The position numbers and the translations under genes are program-made. A stretch of DNA of 64,000 bases. Origin: a virus. Below the pieces are notes generated by a model. The model worked only from the letters and a program-made list of their open reading frames with translations. It did not search any database and had not been told where the DNA came from. Positions 7,277 to 58,230 of this stretch are shown here, one piece after another (within the stretch, counting starts at the first letter, position 1; each line of letters opens with the position of its first letter). The stretch is from the IMG/VR virus record IMGVR_UViG_3300029267_005544, positions 122,451 to 186,450 of that record, one strand, 5' to 3'.

Positions 7277-9376
7277 CTAAACTGGAGAATTTGGAGAAAC
7301 TGGCGGTCTTGATTCCGGCAATTGTTTGTTATACTGTTTTTTATTAAATGATTGATTTGCAGTAACCGGATCTGCCCCCATTTCTGTAGGGGTCGGTGGT
7401 GTTTCTGCACCAATATCACCTTGGCTATATACTGGAAATTCACCAGGGGTCATTTTTTGAGCAAGTTGTTTATCTGGATTAATATCAGCTTCAATAATAT
7501 TTAATTCTTTAAGATTATTATATACCTCTTGATAAAGAGATGGCGTTGAATTTTTCATTATAAGCATGCGCATTTTAAATTCATCAGGATTTGTTTTTGC
7601 TGCAATTGCAAACCTCTGAGTAAGCATAAGGATAAGGTTTGGCACAGGTATAGTTAACGGATCGAGGCCACTTCTTGCTGCTGCAATTGCAACCTCTTCA
7701 GCAATTGTATCTGCATTTTCCTCATGCATTTGAGTATCAAGCTCTTCTTTTTTACCCTGAGATTCTCTATCATGAACCTCAAGGCGATCAGCATTTGCAG
7801 CTTGCGCGTCAGCTTGATACATTGCATTAACAACAGATGCAGAACCTTGAGCAGTTGCTTCGCCCTCCATCTCTTCTATCATCAATTCAATATTTTTCTT
7901 CAATTCTTTCAATTTAAGTTCGTATTCTTGTTCAGGATCAAAACCAAGCTCTTTTGTAACTGTTGTTTTTGACATAAGAGTTTTTGATGCCGACCCGAGG
8001 GCTGCATTAACAATAAGTTGTTTTTTCTGCATATCATCAGCCATTTTGAAATCAGCCATTCTAATATCTATTTCAGGCATATCAAGGTATCTGGAAACAT
8101 TTTCAACTACAAATTCGAGATATTCATGCATATCATTGCGATGATTAATAAATGTATTTTCAACAACTCGGAGAGAAACATTGCTACCTGACCACGACGC
8201 TCCACCACGAATAATTTCAGGAATAATACCTATCCCTGTTATTATTGTATCCTCTGTCGCTTTTAATTCTGGAGTAATAGAAAGAACTTTTGCGTCACCA
8301 CTAAAATTAATTTGCCCTATTGGTAAAGGAACAACAGAAATATAATTAGGGTCAGCTTTCCATTTTCTTATCTCATCTTCAATTTTTGTTCTCCATCCTG
8401 AAAGATTAACTGTGGCATGTGGACTGATATCACCTGTCCCTTGTGGAAAAAGAAGTCTTAAAGGAACAATATGATCAAAGGCAATCATTTCATTTCCTTT
8501 TTTCAAAATCTTCGTATGAAAGATATCTTTCATAACAGGCATAATTGCAGGAATTCCCCATCCACGTTCTGACGATATAACATATTGTGGGCCAGATCTT
8601 TTTAAATGGAATACGTTATCAGCCATTAATTTTAATGGCTTTTTTTTCTTAACGGCCTCTATAACTTCAAGCCTGGTAGTACTGATAATATCAATATCGC
8701 CACGTTTAATTGCGACTTCCATCTGCGGAGGGATTTTATAAAAATAAAAATGATCACCACTAATAGTATTGTATTTAATATCAATGTATATCAAATCCCA
8801 ATGGATAAGATTGAATTTATCTATTTCTTTTGTATTTCTATCACGAGCTTCGAGTCGTCCATCAGATTTACATTTGGGGCATTTTCCATAAAATTTATAA
8901 TCTTTGAATTTATATTTTATTGAATCAGCTGCAAATCTATGATTACATTGTTTACAAGTAAAAAATCTTTTAAATGGGTAATTTATGGATATAATTGCAT
9001 TTCCGTAAGCATAATAATCCATTCCGGCTTGTTTCATAGATCTAATAATTTTGAGCTTTTTTTCAAGTATTTTTTTCCATTTTTCAATAGTTTTATCATC
9101 CTTTATTTCAGAGTCTTTGTCTTCATTATAGATTAAATCTGTAATAGGATATTCTGATAATTTAGTTATACATTGTGAAACAAACCCATCACTGAGAACA
9201 CATGCTGCTATATATCGAATAAGGGATTTAATACTTTTTGGTATAAAAGTGCTTGTCATGTCCATAAATGGACTATCATATTTTAACGAGCCCCTGGTAA
9301 ATGCTATTTTAAGATTACTTCCACTATCAGCTCCGCCACCAGAAATACCAGGACCAACTAATCCCTCATTTGCCAT
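7277..9376 (-). CDS. Phage portal protein with zinc-ribbon insertion
   Basis: A 699-residue protein with the look of jumbo-phage portal proteins: an N-terminal helical region, SMKQAGMDYYAYGNAI (113-128), and a long mixed core, then a helical, Gln/Ala-rich C-terminal part. Portal forms the 12-fold ring at the capsid vertex through which DNA is packaged and ejected. An insertion at ~141-169 has C141-x2-C144 and C166-x2-C169, a zinc ribbon, which is unusual for portals. It is the last gene of the minus-strand structural operon, with its own promoter just upstream and an AAAGGA site. Confidence 0.75.
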   Translation of the reverse strand: MANEGLVGPGISGGGADSGSNLKIAFTRGSLKYDSPFMDMTSTFIPKSIKSLIRYIAACVLSDGFVSQCITKLSEYPITDLIYNEDKDSEIKDDKTIEKWKKILEKKLKIIRSMKQAGMDYYAYGNAIISINYPFKRFFTCKQCNHRFAADSIKYKFKDYKFYGKCPKCKSDGRLEARDRNTKEIDKFNLIHWDLIYIDIKYNTISGDHFYFYKIPPQMEVAIKRGDIDIISTTRLEVIEAVKKKKPLKLMADNVFHLKRSGPQYVISSERGWGIPAIMPVMKDIFHTKILKKGNEMIAFDHIVPLRLLFPQGTGDISPHATVNLSGWRTKIEDEIRKWKADPNYISVVPLPIGQINFSGDAKVLSITPELKATEDTIITGIGIIPEIIRGGASWSGSNVSLRVVENTFINHRNDMHEYLEFVVENVSRYLDMPEIDIRMADFKMADDMQKKQLIVNAALGSASKTLMSKTTVTKELGFDPEQEYELKLKELKKNIELMIEEMEGEATAQGSASVVNAMYQADAQAANADRLEVHDRESQGKKEELDTQMHEENADTIAEEVAIAAARSGLDPLTIPVPNLILMLTQRFAIAAKTNPDEFKMRMLIMKNSTPSLYQEVYNNLKELNIIEADINPDKQLAQKMTPGEFPVYSQGDIGAETPPTPTEMGADPVTANQSFNKKQYNKQLPESRPPVSPNSPV

Positions 9377-9484: not shown

Positions 9485-10150
9485 CTATCTTCTAAGAGCT
9501 CTCCATCCAGATCTTCTTTCGTCACCTATTTTTTTACCCTGCAAATATTGTAAAATAGATGATCCTGCACCAAGCCCTGCAGAAGCACCTATTGCAGCTC
9601 CAGTATTTATTGTCTGTTTTTTTACCAGATCACGAAGTTCTGATATACCTGCATTACCCTTGAGTCTTGGCAGCATGTTAAAAAAAGCCTTATTTTTAAT
9701 TACTTGCCCGCCCCTTTTTAATCCAATAGCCTTATGTATATGCGTTGCTCCTTGTTGTGTTATTTTACCTGTTTTAAGCGATTTTGTAAGAGCTTGCGTC
9801 CCTTTTGCACCATGATAAAGTTGTTTGTAAGGAGAAATTGCCCCTGCGCCAAAACCTCTTATAGCACCAACAACTTTTCTTCTAAAACCGCCTGGTGTTT
9901 GTGCAAATCTTCGTATTCCGCCGACCGTCCCACTTACAGCTGATGGAATTATTGTAGCACCACCTATAATGCCACCAACACTCCCTGATATTAAATGAGT
10001 TTTATGACGTTTAGCCCTTTGTGATAGGCCAAATGTGCTTGTGCCAGTTGGGTCAAAACCAGCTAAAAAAGATTTTGATATGGAAACAGGATCTTTAGCT
10101 ATTTTTTGAAGTTCGTCTACAAAAGCTGCTTTATAAATATCGTTATTCAT
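9485..10150 (-). CDS. Tagged glycine-rich basic protein (cargo/internal virion candidate)
   Basis: A 221-residue protein with the shared leader MNNDIYKAAFVDELQKIA. After it come Gly-rich, weakly hydrophobic segments (GSVGGIIGGATIIPSAVSG; GAAIGASAGLGAGSS) separated by Arg/Lys-rich stretches, and a basic C-terminus (GWRALRR). The pattern suggests a membrane-active or DNA-binding internal virion protein. It is not recognised by family. The leader is the same type as in the 44-48 kb cargo block, so it may mark the protein for packaging and be cut off. Ends just before the portal promoter. Confidence 0.75.
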   Translation of the reverse strand: MNNDIYKAAFVDELQKIAKDPVSISKSFLAGFDPTGTSTFGLSQRAKRHKTHLISGSVGGIIGGATIIPSAVSGTVGGIRRFAQTPGGFRRKVVGAIRGFGAGAISPYKQLYHGAKGTQALTKSLKTGKITQQGATHIHKAIGLKRGGQVIKNKAFFNMLPRLKGNAGISELRDLVKKQTINTGAAIGASAGLGAGSSILQYLQGKKIGDERRSGWRALRR

Positions 10151-11021: not shown

Positions 11022-11648
11022 TTATTCATCTTTTATTATAGTATTATATGATTTATTTATTATTTCTGGTAGAGATTCCCACCAATTATTCCATTTTTTA
11101 TTACCTTTCCATATTTTACCAGCAACACATATACGAGGCCTCCCATTAAATCCAATATCTGATTTTGCATATATATTAGGTTCTTTTTGAAGTTCATTTA
11201 CTATTTTTTTATGCAATTTATCATATTGTGGTGGCATTCTAAAAACAATAGCCGCTGGTCTTTCGGGCCCCTTACCCTCTTCAGAAGATCTTATTTCTAC
11301 TGGGAGTTTATTTAACCTGTCTAACCATTTATTTTTTAAACCTTTATCGACAAAAATTCCTTTCCATTTTTTCTTAGGCTCATTTGTTCTACCCATTAAA
11401 AATTTATCAGGATTTTTTCCATAAACAGTTTGATAAGCAAGGGTTGGAGAATTAACTTTTCCAGTAACACCAGCCACAATCATTTGATCACTTCTGCTTA
11501 AAGGGGCATTATTTTTGATTTTATTAAAATTTCTTAAATGACTTGCTCCCATTAATCCGGATCCAAGCAAAAAACTCGAAAGAACAGAAGTTAATGGCTT
11601 TTTTGAAACTGTCTCCCGAAAACTTTGTAATATTTTTCTATTTAGCAT
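11022..11648 (-). CDS. Tagged hypothetical protein (208 residues)
   Basis: The start MLNRKILQSFRETVSKKP resembles the L-type leaders MLTSEVLQSF and MIISEVLQSF of proteins at 47.5-48.5 kb, though more weakly. A short hydrophobic segment (SSFLLGSGLMGA) follows, then a basic region with many Trp and Lys and a C-terminal domain around ICVAGKIWKGNKKW. The family is unknown. Location among small genes next to the portal and the leader suggest a minor virion or internal protein. Confidence 0.7.
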   Translation of the reverse strand: MLNRKILQSFRETVSKKPLTSVLSSFLLGSGLMGASHLRNFNKIKNNAPLSRSDQMIVAGVTGKVNSPTLAYQTVYGKNPDKFLMGRTNEPKKKWKGIFVDKGLKNKWLDRLNKLPVEIRSSEEGKGPERPAAIVFRMPPQYDKLHKKIVNELQKEPNIYAKSDIGFNGRPRICVAGKIWKGNKKWNNWWESLPEIINKSYNTIIKDE

Positions 11649-12066: not shown

Positions 12067-12897
12067 TTATTTTTTACCTTGCATCTTAGTACCACACTTG
12101 GGGCAATCTTTTTCGGCGCATGGGGTTCCACGATTATGTTCTTCCTCGTGCCCGCATGATGGACATACACATTTTCCGGCCCCTCCAACCATTTGCCTCG
12201 GACCGCCAACACCCTTTCCTTCACCAAGTTTTGCAATTTTTTCAATAAAAAGGCGTTTTTCTGGGGCTGACATATTCTTCACCGTATCAACAGGATGTCT
12301 TTTAAAATTATCAGAAACATCCTGAGTGAATGTTGCAGCGATTTTTTCAAGCACATCTTTCTTTCTCGACATTTTAATCAAGTCATAATTCGTCTTATCA
12401 CCTGCAACTTTTTCGGCATCGTATTCCGGGCGTATTAAACTCCCAAATACAGTTAAAACCGGGTCAACAATATCATTATCGTATCGATATTCAAAATTAG
12501 CCAACTTGTCAAAAGCCTCGAGGGCTTTAACAATTGCTATACCTGGCGTTTCTTCCGAAAGATTAGCCACCTTCTCAAGTAATGGTAGTGCGTCCATTTC
12601 TTGACCACCAATGGTAACTTTGATATTTTCTTTTAAACAGGCATCTTTTCTCAGCTGCATATTACGAACAAAATCTGGCGAAATTGCAGCATCCTTTTTA
12701 AGCATGCGCGCATAGTTCGTAATCCAATTACGATCTACATCTACACCAAGAGCATCAGCTCGTTTTTCTATATTGGTCGCTATTGCCGCTCGGTCCATTG
12801 GATTAAACCGAGTGAGATATTTATCAAAATAGGCAACAGCTGTCTTTATATGCTCTTCAGTTTCAATTGGATATTTACCCTTTAATGCGAAATGCAT
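12067..12897 (-). CDS. Helical protein with C-terminal zinc ribbon and repeated EK[I/V]A motifs
   Basis: A 276-residue protein. The first ~235 residues are helical and contain five short similar spots: IEKRADALG (43-51), LLEKVANLS (106-114), AFDKLANFE (128-136), VLEKIAATF (182-190) and FIEKIAKLG (217-225). The C-terminus is a zinc ribbon with C243, C245, C248, C260, C265 and C268. The EKIA core recalls the leaders of tagged proteins in this operon, so these may be binding or protease sites. The family is not firmly known; similar zinc-ended proteins occur beside portals in large phages. Confidence 0.7.
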   Translation of the reverse strand: MHFALKGKYPIETEEHIKTAVAYFDKYLTRFNPMDRAAIATNIEKRADALGVDVDRNWITNYARMLKKDAAISPDFVRNMQLRKDACLKENIKVTIGGQEMDALPLLEKVANLSEETPGIAIVKALEAFDKLANFEYRYDNDIVDPVLTVFGSLIRPEYDAEKVAGDKTNYDLIKMSRKKDVLEKIAATFTQDVSDNFKRHPVDTVKNMSAPEKRLFIEKIAKLGEGKGVGGPRQMVGGAGKCVCPSCGHEEEHNRGTPCAEKDCPKCGTKMQGKK

Positions 12898-44109: not shown

Positions 44110-45933
44110 TTATGACAGTCTGGGGCCGAAAAGCGCACCACCAATACCACCTACAATACCACCTGATATTATCCGCCTCGGAAGGTATTCCCAGTATCTC
44201 GCTCTTGCTTTTTCCTTTTCCGTCTCGACACGATTCTTGTAATCTTCAACACTCTCCAGACTTCTTCTTCTACTCACCTTGTGCTTATAAGGAAAGGCAG
44301 AGCCAACCGCACCAATAACACCACCCACTGCAGCTCTGGTTAAAACAGGATGCTCTATTGCTGCATGGGTCATCATGGCAACGCCGTCACCTATCATCTT
44401 TGAAAGTTTGGCAGCAATTGCCGATTTTGATGACAATTTAATTATCTCACTATAAAAAGAACTATTATAGGATGATTCCTTTTGCATTCCCTCTTCCTTA
44501 AAAATATCAAGGAATTTATCAAGAAGTTCCTGTTTATTTTTACTTAGATTTTCTAAGTATTGATCGGCAGATGTGTCAGACTTTTTCCTGAAAACTTTTT
44601 GTATAATATTTTTGGGAATTGTCGTTTGGTATTTTATTACATCAACTTTCCTTTCATCGCTTGGGAGGTTTTCATGAGATTTGTATCTAATTCCCCTACC
44701 GATAACCTGCTCGATCCTTGATTGGTTCCAGTGCGGCTCAACTATCTGAATAGAACGGGTCTCTTTTAGGTCAAGACCCTCTGAGCCTGCTCCGCTTACC
44801 AGAATTGCCTTTACCTCACCTTTATTGTATTTATCAACAGATTCCTTTTTCTTCTTGTCATTTAACTGGCCGGTAAAACGGGCGTATGGTATACCACGCC
44901 TCTCCATCTCCTCTGCAATAATATCAACACCAGCGCCAATATAATTTGAGTACACAATACCTTTATGCTTCTTATTCTTTTTTACCTTTTCTTCAAAATC
45001 ATCAACAACAGCTTTAAGTTTTGGTGAAATCATTTCTTTACCACCATACGGCCTCGTAGTATTGGATACCTGCCTTGCCGCAGTCATAAATGCATTTAAT
45101 TCTTTCAGCTCTTTCTTTGATAAAGGCATGTTCATACGAATTTTTAACGCAACGACAGGATTGGCCCTTTTGGTAATATATTGATAATATTTAACTTGCT
45201 CTGGTGATGCCTCAACTCCCTTCACCTCATCGATACGATCTGGATAGTTTTCTTCACCGGGCTTATAATAATGAACCTTTCCCTTAATAGCTCCTTTAAT
45301 CTCATCAACGTGCCTGGGGTAAAATTCGACACCCGGCTTCATACCCATCAAATACTTTAATGGTGATAAGCCAATCACCTTCTCTCCAACAAATTTTGTA
45401 TTAAACATATATGGGTCAAGAGGTATATTCCTCGCTTCTGGAGTCAACGTTCTTATAATTGGCGCAAGCTCATACGGATGGTTCGTCGCAGGGGTTCCGG
45501 TTAAAAGTATCCTTTTCGGGTATGATAGTGCAGACCCAACAACTGCCTGCGAAGTCATTGTATCATGCCTACCAATGCGCTGAGGCTCATCGAATACAAC
45601 AGCTTTTGCTCCTGGAGTTGGGCCCTCTTTTATGAACTTATTATAAGAAACAACATTCCTCTTCGCACCCCCAGGTGTAGTAAATTTATCAAGCTCCTTT
45701 TTATAATTCTCTCTGAGAGATGCAGGCACAACAACATCAACAGAGCCACCATCTTCAGTTCCGGCAATTGATGTTATTGTCTTTCCTGAACCCAAATGGT
45801 GGAGTAGAAGAAGAGCATTTTCTTTATCAAGCTTTTTTAAAGCTTCAGACTGGTGCTGCAATAACTCGCCTTTAAACTTCGATAATTTTTCAATTTCAGA
45901 TATAAAAGCTTGTTTATAAATACTATAATTCAT
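44110..45933 (-). CDS. Tagged SNF2/NPH-I-like superfamily 2 helicase (cargo candidate)
   Basis: A 607-residue protein with leader MNYSIYKQAFISEIEKLS. SF2 motifs: HHLGSGKT (45-52), VVP near 68, VFDEPQ (113-118), LLTGTPA (143-149), then a C-lobe with IVYSN, GAGSEGLDL and QVIGRGIRY followed by SHENLP. The order matches viral NPH-I/SNF2-like ATPases that work on DNA or transcription complexes. After ~485 the enzyme ends and a second leader-like sequence (YNSSFYSEIIKLSSKSA) opens a ~110-residue Gly-rich/hydrophobic tail, as if a second packaged protein had been fused. Its place among tagged genes suggests virion packaging. Confidence 0.8.
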   Translation of the reverse strand: MNYSIYKQAFISEIEKLSKFKGELLQHQSEALKKLDKENALLLLHHLGSGKTITSIAGTEDGGSVDVVVPASLRENYKKELDKFTTPGGAKRNVVSYNKFIKEGPTPGAKAVVFDEPQRIGRHDTMTSQAVVGSALSYPKRILLTGTPATNHPYELAPIIRTLTPEARNIPLDPYMFNTKFVGEKVIGLSPLKYLMGMKPGVEFYPRHVDEIKGAIKGKVHYYKPGEENYPDRIDEVKGVEASPEQVKYYQYITKRANPVVALKIRMNMPLSKKELKELNAFMTAARQVSNTTRPYGGKEMISPKLKAVVDDFEEKVKKNKKHKGIVYSNYIGAGVDIIAEEMERRGIPYARFTGQLNDKKKKESVDKYNKGEVKAILVSGAGSEGLDLKETRSIQIVEPHWNQSRIEQVIGRGIRYKSHENLPSDERKVDVIKYQTTIPKNIIQKVFRKKSDTSADQYLENLSKNKQELLDKFLDIFKEEGMQKESSYNSSFYSEIIKLSSKSAIAAKLSKMIGDGVAMMTHAAIEHPVLTRAAVGGVIGAVGSAFPYKHKVSRRRSLESVEDYKNRVETEKEKARARYWEYLPRRIISGGIVGGIGGALFGPRLS

Positions 45934-45956
45934 AATTTATTCTTTCTTACAATTTT

Positions 45957-46367
45957 TTAGTTTTTTGAAAAATAGGATTTTGCACCCAATCCAGCTAAAC
46001 CAATACCGCCAGCCGTCGCAACACCCCTTGCAACAGATGGAATACCTGTTCTTTCCAGATTTTTTCTGGCAAGACCCGTATGATATGCATAACTAATATC
46101 ACCCGGGCTTCCCATAGCAAATTGCGGCCTTCTCATTCCTGCTTTCGGAGTAATCGCTGCTTTTGCCGCGGCACTATGCATTTGATATCTTTTGAACCGT
46201 TCTGCCTTGGCACCTATTGATGTAGGAAGCCTTTTGATTTTTCGACCAATGGTTCCAATTATTTTACGCCCATGTCGTTTAACAATATTACCGAAACCTG
46301 ATTGGGCAATTTTCTCTATCTCATCTTCAAAAGCAGCCATATAAACATCATAATAAACATTGTTCAT
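45957..46367 (-). CDS. Tagged small basic protein (136 residues)
   Basis: The start is set at ATG 46367, which has GAGGT at good spacing; the longer frame to 46439 overlaps the sigma gene and lacks a site. The leader YYDVYMAAFEDEIEKIA is followed by a very basic domain (KRHGRKIIGTIGRKIKRLP) and a Gly/Ala-rich hydrophobic end. This looks like an internal virion protein that binds DNA or membrane. No family recognised. Confidence 0.75.
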   Translation of the reverse strand: MNNVYYDVYMAAFEDEIEKIAQSGFGNIVKRHGRKIIGTIGRKIKRLPTSIGAKAERFKRYQMHSAAAKAAITPKAGMRRPQFAMGSPGDISYAYHTGLARKNLERTGIPSVARGVATAGGIGLAGLGAKSYFSKN

Positions 46368-46377
46368 AATCCATACC

Positions 46378-47070
46378 TCACCGATAGGATTTAATTTTTT
46401 CTGATAATCGTTTTTTAGCCCTATGCACCCACATTTCATTTTGATTAAGTTTTTGTGCTATTTCTTTATTATTCAATATTGGTTTACCACCAAAGCCGAA
46501 TGTATGTTCGAATATAACCTTATCAGGACCAGACAGCTCATGGTACATATAATCCGCCAATGCCTTGTCAGGGTGCTCTGTAGTAACAATGTTGCCATAA
46601 TAATCAAATGACGCCTTTGACGCTGTTGCCTCACCACCAAGCTCATGCTCCATACGAGCAACTTCTTTTCTACTCCATCCAATTTCATCTGCCATTTCAG
46701 ATGTACTTGGCTCCCTCCCAAGGCGATCCTCAAGATTGTCGCGTACAATAGTAAATGTTGATCTCTTAAGAGCGCGATTCTCAGGAATATGCCCGGACTG
46801 AAGTGACTCAGATGCTACGCGCTGAACTTTCTTCAGATTGTTCCATACATGTGTAGTGGGTTGGGTACCCATATTAGGATTGTAACTCTTAAAGGATTTT
46901 ATTAATTGAGTAGTTGCCTCGGCGCGCAATGTTGCAGGAGGAACACCAACAGTTCTGTATTGGTTAACAACTTTATTAACAACCGGCTGATAACGAACAA
47001 TCAAATCAGCAAATAGTTGCGGATCTTTTGTCTTTTGCCATTGCAATATATTTTCTTGATCAGTTGGCAT
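46378..47070 (-). CDS. Sigma-70-family sigma factor
   Basis: A 230-residue sigma factor. Region 2 spans ~16-85 (DLIVRYQPVVNKVVNQYR ... HVWNNLKKVQR), region 3 ~100-140 (DRLGREPSTSEMADEIGWSR) and region 4 ~175-228 with a helix-turn-helix (LNNKEIAQKLNQNEMWVHR), like FliA/SigF-type factors of about this size. The start is placed at 47070, where AAGGTG is well spaced. It redirects host RNA polymerase, most likely to phage promoters. It sits inside the cargo block, but its own N-terminus has no leader. Confidence 0.85.
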   Translation of the reverse strand: MPTDQENILQWQKTKDPQLFADLIVRYQPVVNKVVNQYRTVGVPPATLRAEATTQLIKSFKSYNPNMGTQPTTHVWNNLKKVQRVASESLQSGHIPENRALKRSTFTIVRDNLEDRLGREPSTSEMADEIGWSRKEVARMEHELGGEATASKASFDYYGNIVTTEHPDKALADYMYHELSGPDKVIFEHTFGFGGKPILNNKEIAQKLNQNEMWVHRAKKRLSEKIKSYR

Positions 47071-47090
47071 AATCACCTTTAATTAACTGT

Positions 47091-47540
47091 TTACATATTA
47101 TTTACAGCATTTTGTATACTTTTGATAAGTGACTGGTCAATTGAGCTTATCATCTCTTTTTTTACGGCTTTTTGCCTAGCTAAATTAGACATTATTTTTT
47201 TTGTTATCCACTCTGCAGGCACATCTTTTTTAAGAACATACGAACGTTTCATGTGTTTGGGTAAGCTCGCCCCAATCATCAACGCCGCTTTGTTCGCAGG
47301 ATCAGTTTCTAAATATTCTTTTCTTAGATGTTTTGGTATATTAATTTTTAGCATTGCACCTTTCTTCCCATATTGCGATGCATACGCTGTTCCAACATGC
47401 GTTCTCCTTGCTATATAACTTCCAGCTTTTAAACCTTCTTTCATTTTCTTTGCAATACTTTTAAGAGTGTGTCCGTGATAATAAGCTGCTTTTTTTTCAA
47501 TATTATTACCAAACTGTTTTAATATTTCAGGTGTTATCAT
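47091..47540 (-). CDS. Tagged ADP-ribosyltransferase-like protein (149 residues)
   Basis: The leader MITPEILKQFGNNIEKKA runs directly into YYHGHTLKSIAKKMKEGL and then a THVGTAYASQYGKKGAML-type strand, the pattern of ART folds (Y-H-G near the NAD pocket, KEGL, ...A..YA...G..L.V.IP), also seen in many phage proteins. KDVPAEWI near 108-115 fits the conserved end. Catalytic Glu cannot be fixed by eye. T4 packages ART enzymes (Alt) by a leader, so packaging of this one is a reasonable inference. Could also be a phosphotransferase of the KptA type. Confidence 0.55.
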   Translation of the reverse strand: MITPEILKQFGNNIEKKAAYYHGHTLKSIAKKMKEGLKAGSYIARRTHVGTAYASQYGKKGAMLKINIPKHLRKEYLETDPANKAALMIGASLPKHMKRSYVLKKDVPAEWITKKIMSNLARQKAVKKEMISSIDQSLIKSIQNAVNNM

Positions 47541-47555
47541 TTATCACCTCCTAAA

Positions 47556-47732
47556 TTAAGCTGTAGTTGGAACTTTCTCAGGTTTTTTTACTTTTCCTGG
47601 CATTTTAGTTTTAATTTTTTTCGGCATTTTCATAACATTATCAGCACCGGTGTTAATCTCTGATATTGATTCAGCAATTTTTTGAAAATTAATATTATTT
47701 CCAAACGATTGTAATACTTCTGAAATTATCAT
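47556..47732 (-). CDS. Tagged mini-protein (58 residues)
   Basis: A small gene in the gap between two tagged proteins. It begins MIISEVLQSFGNNINFQKIA, almost the same as the leader of the metallopeptidase next to it, and the rest is a Lys/Pro-rich tail (PKKIKTKMPGKVKKPEKVP). It consists of little more than the tag plus a basic peptide, like a short internal protein. Confidence 0.65.
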   Translation of the reverse strand: MIISEVLQSFGNNINFQKIAESISEINTGADNVMKMPKKIKTKMPGKVKKPEKVPTTA

Positions 47733-47742
47733 TTAAACCTCA

Positions 47743-48507
47743 CTATTTCTTAATTTTCTTTACTACTTTAAGTATTTTTTTTGCCGTATCCTCGGCGATG
47801 TCAATATTAGATAATGCGAGGACTGGAACACCAATACCGATGCCTATATTACGAGCAATTCTATCAGCATCATCTTGTGTTTTATATGTAGCTAATGCAA
47901 TATCTTTTATAACTTTTTCGCCTTTACCTTTTGCATATGGTGATTTTTCCCATGCTCTTACTTCTTCTTTATATTCAGGCTCAATGGTTGATCTATAAAG
48001 TTTTTCCCAGAATCCAAGCCCCTGTTTTTCTTTAAAAGATTCATGATGACCAAGCTCATGGCCAAGAACATACCGATTTATTTTTTTAGGAAGAACAACA
48101 ACCGGACTTACTTTGCTTGGTGAATATACAGCATTATCTTCAACTGGTACGGTTAATCCTACAATAAACCTTCTAATAGGATTCATATTTTTGACAGCTT
48201 TTAACTGCTTCTCTGTTGAGACAACTGATATTTCAGGGTATTTTACAGCAATTTCTTCTCTTAACTTTTTCGCGCTCTGAGGATCTTTTTGAAATTCTTT
48301 TTTTGCTTCTGGGAATATTCTTTTTCTTTTTGCCTCAGCAATATCATCAGTGATATTACTTGCATGTGCAGCAGCACCAAGGCCAATAATAGCAGCTAGA
48401 ACAATTCTAGTGGCAATACTTCTTCCACCTTTTATAAATGGATTTGTAGATAAAGCTCTTTTCTCAATCTCATCACCGAATGATTGTAAAACTTCAGATG
48501 TTAACAT
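47743..48507 (-). CDS. Tagged zinc metallopeptidase with membrane segments
   Basis: A 254-residue protein. Leader MLTSEVLQSFGDEIEKRA is followed by a hydrophobic segment (RIVLAAIIGLGAAAHA, ~34-50). The zinc motif is H150-E-x2-H154 (VLGHELGHH), with a Glu-rich stretch (EPEYKEE, ~176-182) that could give the third ligand, as in M48-like or other gluzincins. A second hydrophobic stretch lies near 217-230. It may cut host envelope or a phage protein upon injection. The peptidase call is good; family and target are not known. Confidence 0.7.
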   Translation of the reverse strand: MLTSEVLQSFGDEIEKRALSTNPFIKGGRSIATRIVLAAIIGLGAAAHASNITDDIAEAKRKRIFPEAKKEFQKDPQSAKKLREEIAVKYPEISVVSTEKQLKAVKNMNPIRRFIVGLTVPVEDNAVYSPSKVSPVVVLPKKINRYVLGHELGHHESFKEKQGLGFWEKLYRSTIEPEYKEEVRAWEKSPYAKGKGEKVIKDIALATYKTQDDADRIARNIGIGIGVPVLALSNIDIAEDTAKKILKVVKKIKK

Positions 48508-57876: not shown

Positions 57877-58040
57877 TATTTATATGGTGCCTTCTCAGTA
57901 TACTCGGAATATTAAATAATGATAAATCTGCATGGATAGTATCATTTAAAATAAGCTGCATTACATTTATTTTCTATTCTGCAATAGCAGTAATTGTAAT
58001 GTTGATAAAATTCATCTGGTCTAATTTGCCGGATGGATAA
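57846..58040 (+). CDS. Small membrane protein (64 residues), two membrane segments
   Basis: Preceded by GGAGG at 6 bases. Two hydrophobic helices (IIFIIWTIIFIWCLLSIL and ITFIFYSAIAVIVMLIKFI) separated by a short polar loop, a holin-like architecture in very small form. Holin is only one possibility; no lysis enzyme gene is next to it. Confidence 0.6.
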   Translation: MWIIFIIWTIIFIWCLLSILGILNNDKSAWIVSFKISCITFIFYSAIAVIVMLIKFIWSNLPDG

Positions 58041-58068
58041 TAACACTCTTAATCCATAAGGAGATATT

Positions 58069-58230
58069 ATGGATACTGAATCAAAACACACACCAAGTCA
58101 TTGTGATTACACAGAATGTTATCTTTATGATATATGTAATCATAAAGATACACCTCATAATTGTTCTATGTATCGAGATTATATAAAATTAAAAAATATG
58201 GAAAAAAAATATGTAGAAATTGAAAATTAA
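58069..58230 (+). CDS. Small Cys-rich protein (53 residues)
   Basis: AAGGAG is well placed before ATG 58069. The protein has four cysteines in the order C-x4-C-x5-C-x8-C (CDYTECYLYDIC ... DTPHNC), which could bind a metal, followed by a Lys/Glu-rich helix. It ends 2 bases before the tmRNA. Too short for the usual ORF cut-off but probably real. Confidence 0.6.
   Translation: MDTESKHTPSHCDYTECYLYDICNHKDTPHNCSMYRDYIKLKNMEKKYVEIEN

Follow-up and report, generated by a model that had tools for sequence, protein, structure and literature searches.

A short leader, matching I-[YL]-x-x-[AS]-F-x-[DN]-E-[LI]-x-K-x-[AS] over ~18 residues, stands at the N-terminus of five genes at positions 44110–48507 of the window (the whole 64,000-nucleotide stretch of viral DNA that was analysed) and of one further gene at 9485, and the bodies behind these leaders are mutually unrelated. 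We consider it probable that the leader serves as a modular propeptide for capsid targeting, cut after K-x-[A/S], whose bodies are packaged in the head and injected. The window corresponds to positions 122451–186450 of a record of 186,450 bases (record coordinate = window coordinate + 122450). This 186-kb record contains about 14 leader copies, nearly all of them in late genes.

Leader genes of the window and the record

The window features described here are all on the minus strand. The leader of a SNF2-like helicase (MNYSIYKQAFISEIEKLS; 45880–45933) precedes the helicase body and its glycine-rich C-terminal segment (44110–45879; phrog_62 DNA helicase, Pfam SNF2/Helicase_C). Ahead of that C-terminal segment lies a second, internal leader-like copy, SSYNSSFYSEIIKLS (44431–44475, residues ~487–501). 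This copy together with the glycine-rich C-terminus (44110–44475, residues ~487–607) suggests that the gene may encode two fused cargoes, separable by the predicted cleavage; no clear free-standing relative of the C-terminal segment was found. Helicases of related phages retain a leader, and the records of two relatives, G001 and G002, yielded no copy of this helicase. Next to it, a basic protein (45957–46367) carries the leader MNNVYYDVYMAAFEDEIEKIA at 46305–46367; its start is likely the ATG at 46367, after GGTGAGGT, which yields MNNVYYDVYMAAFEDEIEKIA. A sigma-factor-like gene (46378–47076; phrog_351) stands within the leader cluster yet has no leader. The L-type leader MITPEILKQFGNNIEKKA (47487–47540) begins an ORF at 47091–47540 that we tentatively call ADP-ribosyltransferase (ART)-like; no Pfam or PDB relative of it was found, and its structure model is poor (pLDDT 40). 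The cluster continues with a 58-residue mini-protein (47556–47732; leader MIISEVLQSFGNNINFQKIA at 47673–47732) and a putative metallopeptidase (47743–48507; leader MLTSEVLQSFGDEIEKRA at 48454–48507), a tentative name whose basis is the HELGHH motif. The peptidase is present in G002 and absent from G001. Pattern searches for relatives of the helicase, the ART-like ORF and the peptidase were unsuccessful.

The sixth leader, MNNDIYKAAFVDELQKIA (10097–10150), belongs to a glycine-zipper-like protein (9485–10150) beside the portal gene (7277–9376), the anchor of the late module, whose product is 27.7% identical to the gp204 portal protein of Salmonella phage Arash. The first-pass annotation had proposed a leader common to the five clustered genes and to the gene at 9485, with unrelated bodies; all six leaders were found on ORFs, and the unrelatedness of the bodies was borne out. 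It had also counted a gene at 11022 as a weak member. This gene (11022–11648) has the LQSF start (MLNRKILQSFRETVSKKP) and lacks K-x-A, and we treat it as marginal and exclude it from the leader count.

Additional copies occur in the record on the minus strand at 57974–58183, 80774–81358, 81449–81811 and 82747–82998. An internal copy lies on the plus strand (88399–89073) and a C-terminal copy on the minus strand (98878–99213), so the leader is not strictly N-terminal. The G001 relative of the latter gene likewise has its leader at the C-terminus. The neighbouring ORF at record 98572–98877 starts with a degenerate leader, MNPEIMRALSHHMIKLAKKSS, and its G001 ortholog has a full one (the two ORFs together are L008:3572–4213; in G001, L155:5563–7239).

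The leader is far above its chance level. Across all predicted proteins of the 186-kb record, the regular expression [AS]F..E[ILM][EQ]K[ILMTRK][AS] gave seven matches, all close to N-termini, compared with none in 200 shuffles. The hydrophobic moment of the leader is 0.53, versus 0.27 for shuffled sequences. The annotation had suggested searching the genome and its relatives for the motif, and copies were found across all three: a profile search at E<0.05 detected 11 in the record and nine each in G001 and G002. The same search gave no copy in Arash, Vibrio phage D181, PA-SR01 or phage G.

The late genes are encoded on the minus strand (record 52–106 kb and 129–178 kb) and the others mostly on the plus strand. 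Landmarks of the record include the capsid protein (75728–76753; related to Arash gp226), the head maturation protease (78964–80757; phrog_18299), the terminase (85537–87210) and a fused RNA polymerase (RNAP) beta-beta′ (99232–105579). Leaders were found on 11 of the 73 late minus-strand genes and on one of the 118 plus-strand genes (Fisher p=1e-4). Equal occurrence in early enzymes, which the first-pass annotation had named as counting against packaging, was thus not seen. The sole plus-strand leader gene (record 88399) is divergently encoded beside the head module, and its copy is kept in relatives. An early-gene function of the leader was ruled out, as the leader genes are late.

Distribution and cargo in related phages

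A degenerate DNA pattern for AFxDELxKIA occurs in at least 118 IMG/VR stretches, and a scrambled pattern of the same residues in five. Within these loci, a relaxed regular expression gave 177 matches versus 5.2 expected, and most of those listed lie no more than 15 residues from a methionine; about half of the 177 are the seed matches, and the leader positions F/E/K/A are partly selected by the search pattern. Among the matches listed, homologs of this phage's late genes are present in 91 of the 118 loci, and none of the 118 has homologs of early genes only. All 22 leader-bearing records tested contain two to 14 copies each, 119 of the 127 being on the record's majority strand, and a control record from the scrambled scan has none. 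Searching named phages by tblastn with the leaders alone was unsuccessful.

A stricter pattern matched eight times in 85k cellular genomes. Three of these matches have the same PhoU-like N-terminus, and two others are transketolase-like and rhodanese-like, respectively (names assigned by eye). A general cellular motif was ruled out, the few cellular matches looking coincidental. Also ruled out was a DNA- or RNA-level element: the leader codons vary freely across GC contents of 33–67%, so the constraint acts on the protein. We regard it as exceedingly improbable that the leader is a chance resemblance, or a widespread N-terminal helix with no function in common. The cellular PhoU-like and transketolase-like N-termini do illustrate that the motif can be matched in this way, and one match to a viral transketolase (L069) is probably of this kind, a false positive. 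The shuffles and the scrambled-pattern scan nonetheless reject chance similarity, as does the variety of codons.

Clustered by their bodies, the 127 leader proteins form about 98 groups, an upper bound since the short bodies limit BLAST, and some of the contigs counted may be redundant (e.g. L019/L068, L047/L061 and L094/L096); among the matches listed, the consensus is limited to the leader. The biggest body cluster is the SNF2-like helicase (8), and other bodies match PhoH, histidine phosphatase, peptidase C92, acetyltransferase, glyoxalase and MazG. The gene just upstream of the protease has a leader 95% identical over 19 residues between relatives, with the body swapped. These cargoes bear on the alternative that the leader is a structural assembly helix on ordinary head or tail components, uncleaved and not injected. 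We consider this quite unlikely: the late location fits it, and many bodies are short, glycine-zipper-like or basic, but helicases, PhoH, histidine phosphatase, acetyltransferase and C92 peptidase are among the bodies too, and bodies differ between close relatives, unlike structural parts.

The leader residues upstream of the core have an identity of 0.50–0.76 within a genome, versus 0.06–0.27 between genomes. In this record, the leader DNA of the basic protein and that of the gene at 81449–81811 share 77% identity over 56 bp. The within-genome likeness and this DNA identity together point to new genes having received the leader by duplication. The first-pass annotation had further divided the signal into Y-type and L-type variants, a division that probably does not hold: the mini-protein is L-type in this phage and Y-type in its G001 ortholog, and the peptidase is L-type here and Y-type in G002. 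As orthologous bodies carry either type, the two are probably one signal and appear interchangeable.

The K-x-[A/S] end in head proteins

The K-x-[A/S] that ends the leader consists of the same letters that close the N-terminal extensions of the major capsid protein and the prohead protease. Among capsid-protein orthologs, K-x-A is found at residues 17–27 in 12 of 15 and K-x-S or K-x-G in the other three, versus ~3% of internal windows. The extension ends in K-x-A/S at residues 27–32 in all 17 protease orthologs, and the putative core proteins 77853 and 77337, whose genes lie between those of the protease and the capsid protein, have K-x-A in all orthologs. In the same comparison, the terminase and four tail groups have no such K-x-A, tail group 170969 has one K-x-A at residues 22–23, and most portals are without it. 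N-terminal K-x-A counts in the single genome are not distinctive (10/30 head genes, 13/43 other late genes and 25/118 plus-strand genes), and the case therefore rests on ortholog conservation.

K-x-A is also repeated inside the core proteins 77337 (8 versus 1.6 expected) and 77853 (13 versus 4.5), the top composition-corrected enrichment in the genome. Two other genes enriched in K-x-A, at record 92774–95032 (11 versus 4.2 expected) and record 134517–135347 (window 12067–12897; 9 versus 3.1), may each encode an additional core or ejected head protein. In the leaderless phages Arash and D181, the protease–capsid interval again leads K-x-A enrichment, together with one further structural gene; in PA-SR01 this interval does not lead. 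That K-x-A is merely common was ruled out, as it is enriched only in the head core proteins and a small number of others and shows no enrichment around the PA-SR01 core genes. We propose that K-x-A is most likely the site of the prohead protease, that this site probably predates the leader, and that the leader most likely couples it to a docking helix.

The protease assignment is supported by family phrog_18299, which matches all 12 of the homologs compared, and by the gene order beside the core and capsid genes, which is kept in relatives. Pfam S78 matched one homolog only (E=0.028), and the AlphaFold2 model is poor (pLDDT 54). The protease homologs (alignment A3) have a conserved CxxC...CxH (C170, C173, C184 and H186 in L130), a possible zinc site. 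In some relatives the gene is longer by several hundred residues (L132:8486–11407, L020:3187–6180 and L039:1891–5124), and in L132 and L020 a GAWLSGDGF-like insert near residues 135–160 is possibly an intein. In L133 the protease gene is split into two ORFs.

Virion evidence, known packaging signals and the proposed pathway

Arash and the Vibrio phages D181, D148 and D69 have a related capsid protein, protease, portal and RNAP, and K-x-A in their head proteins; Arash and D181 differ in having no leader copy. In purified Arash virions the helicase homolog gp217 was detected with 38 unique peptides and 1148 spectra, compared with 1333 spectra for the capsid protein, RNAP was the most detected protein, and the sigma factor gp10 was found with 24 peptides (PMC10585845). 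By analogy, gp217 supports the helicase as a virion enzyme. It aligns only from residue 23 of the window helicase and has no leader, so the leader would be one way into the virion and not universally needed. We dropped the Arash mass spectrometry coverage as a gauge of missing propeptides, as the coverage column gives 100% with two peptides. A helicase relative in cyanophage PA-SR01 (L134 25081–26877) is encoded between head genes and has no leader. In the literature as far as searched, we found no leader-bearing phage that is cultured, or that has virion proteomics or N-terminal sequencing.

The abundance of the helicase family in Arash virions also argues against a late role of the leader within the cell (localisation, stability, or a precursor form keeping effectors inactive) and not in virions. 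This we hold to be very unlikely, given also the late-strand bias and the restriction of the leader to phages with this head module. Another alternative, which we judge unlikely, is that the leader tags proteins for docking to the virion RNAP or another internal complex, with the bodies riding along bound and K-x-A being incidental or a separate processing site. The prominence of RNAP in Arash virions fits such a tag, as do the position of the leaderless Arash helicase gene beside RNAP beta′ and, in G002, a run of leader genes adjoining RNAP. Against it, K-x-A is kept exactly where the capsid and protease N-terminal extensions end, and leader genes are dispersed over the head, tail and portal regions.

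The capsid-targeting propeptide has precedents in architecture. T4 internal proteins bear a ten-residue capsid-targeting sequence (CTS), of which the first part targets and the last part is processed by the capsid/core protease, and Alt is an injected enzyme with a CTS (PMC9026906). Like the CTS of IPI–IPIII and Alt, cut by gp21, the leader is a short N-terminal propeptide common to divergent internal proteins, and its processing signal is common to capsid, protease and core proteins as read from their sequences, with cutting being predicted. In T4, by contrast, gp21 cuts after glutamate (I/L-x-E); the leader instead closes on a conserved K-x-[A/S], its cargoes are far more varied, and internal and C-terminal copies exist too. 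In phiKZ and SPN3US (proteases gp175 and gp245, respectively), capsid and ejection proteins have N-terminal propeptides, of which two are just 20 and 24 residues long, and as here one short cleavage motif is found on them; there it is A-X-E (S/A-X-E in phiKZ) and here K-x-A, and the parts of that account available to us describe no common docking sequence on many unrelated cargoes (PMC10052503). The absence of a glutamate-ended motif places the leader outside the substrate sets of T4 gp21 and phiKZ gp175. In P1, the N-terminal 30 residues of DarB are enough for a reporter to be packaged in the capsid (PMC9024508). Whereas DarB is a single large cargo, here the address is reused on many genes. 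One leader protein, the helicase L030, weakly matches a DarB-like family (phrog_10089; E=3e-6 over 65 residues), the sole leader protein to do so. The proposed tag is akin to the T4, SPN3US and P1 DarB signals in architecture and differs in cleavage code and cargo breadth.

We propose the following pathway. During head assembly, the amphipathic leader helix, with I/Y/L, F and L/I on one face, would attach its protein to the prohead, at the inner core or the shell. Cleavage by the prohead protease would follow after K-x-[A/S] at the leader end, and the same cut would probably be made on the protease's own N-terminus, on the capsid propeptide and at many core-protein sites. The freed body would stay in the head and be injected with the DNA, and new injected proteins would be gained by leader duplication ahead of new genes. 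We infer docking, cleavage, packaging and injection; the common leader, its late location, K-x-[A/S] in head proteins and the within-genome leader likeness are read directly from the genomes. The earlier suggestion of a packaging leader cut by the prohead protease withstood all the tests applied to it, and the K-x-[A/S] in head proteins gave it a further link; it needed amending in that the leader is not strictly N-terminal and that the Arash helicase is in virions without one.

More broadly, we lean towards a picture in which phages of a large uncultured clade fill their heads with dozens of unrelated enzymes by means of one duplicated, exchangeable tag and a new K-x-A protease specificity, with the injected set readable from the genome and internal or C-terminal copies marking fused cargoes released separately. 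Our literature search found no paper describing this tag. Phage-injected proteins are hard to find because they have no common sequence; if the leader is a packaging signal, it would list the injected proteins directly for the whole clade. If so, the set would include helicases, peptidases, acetyltransferases and many unknowns as candidates for early counter-defence or host takeover, K-x-A would join the glutamate codes as another cleavage code in large-phage head maturation, and the leader would be a short tag with which proteins of choice could be packaged in such capsids.
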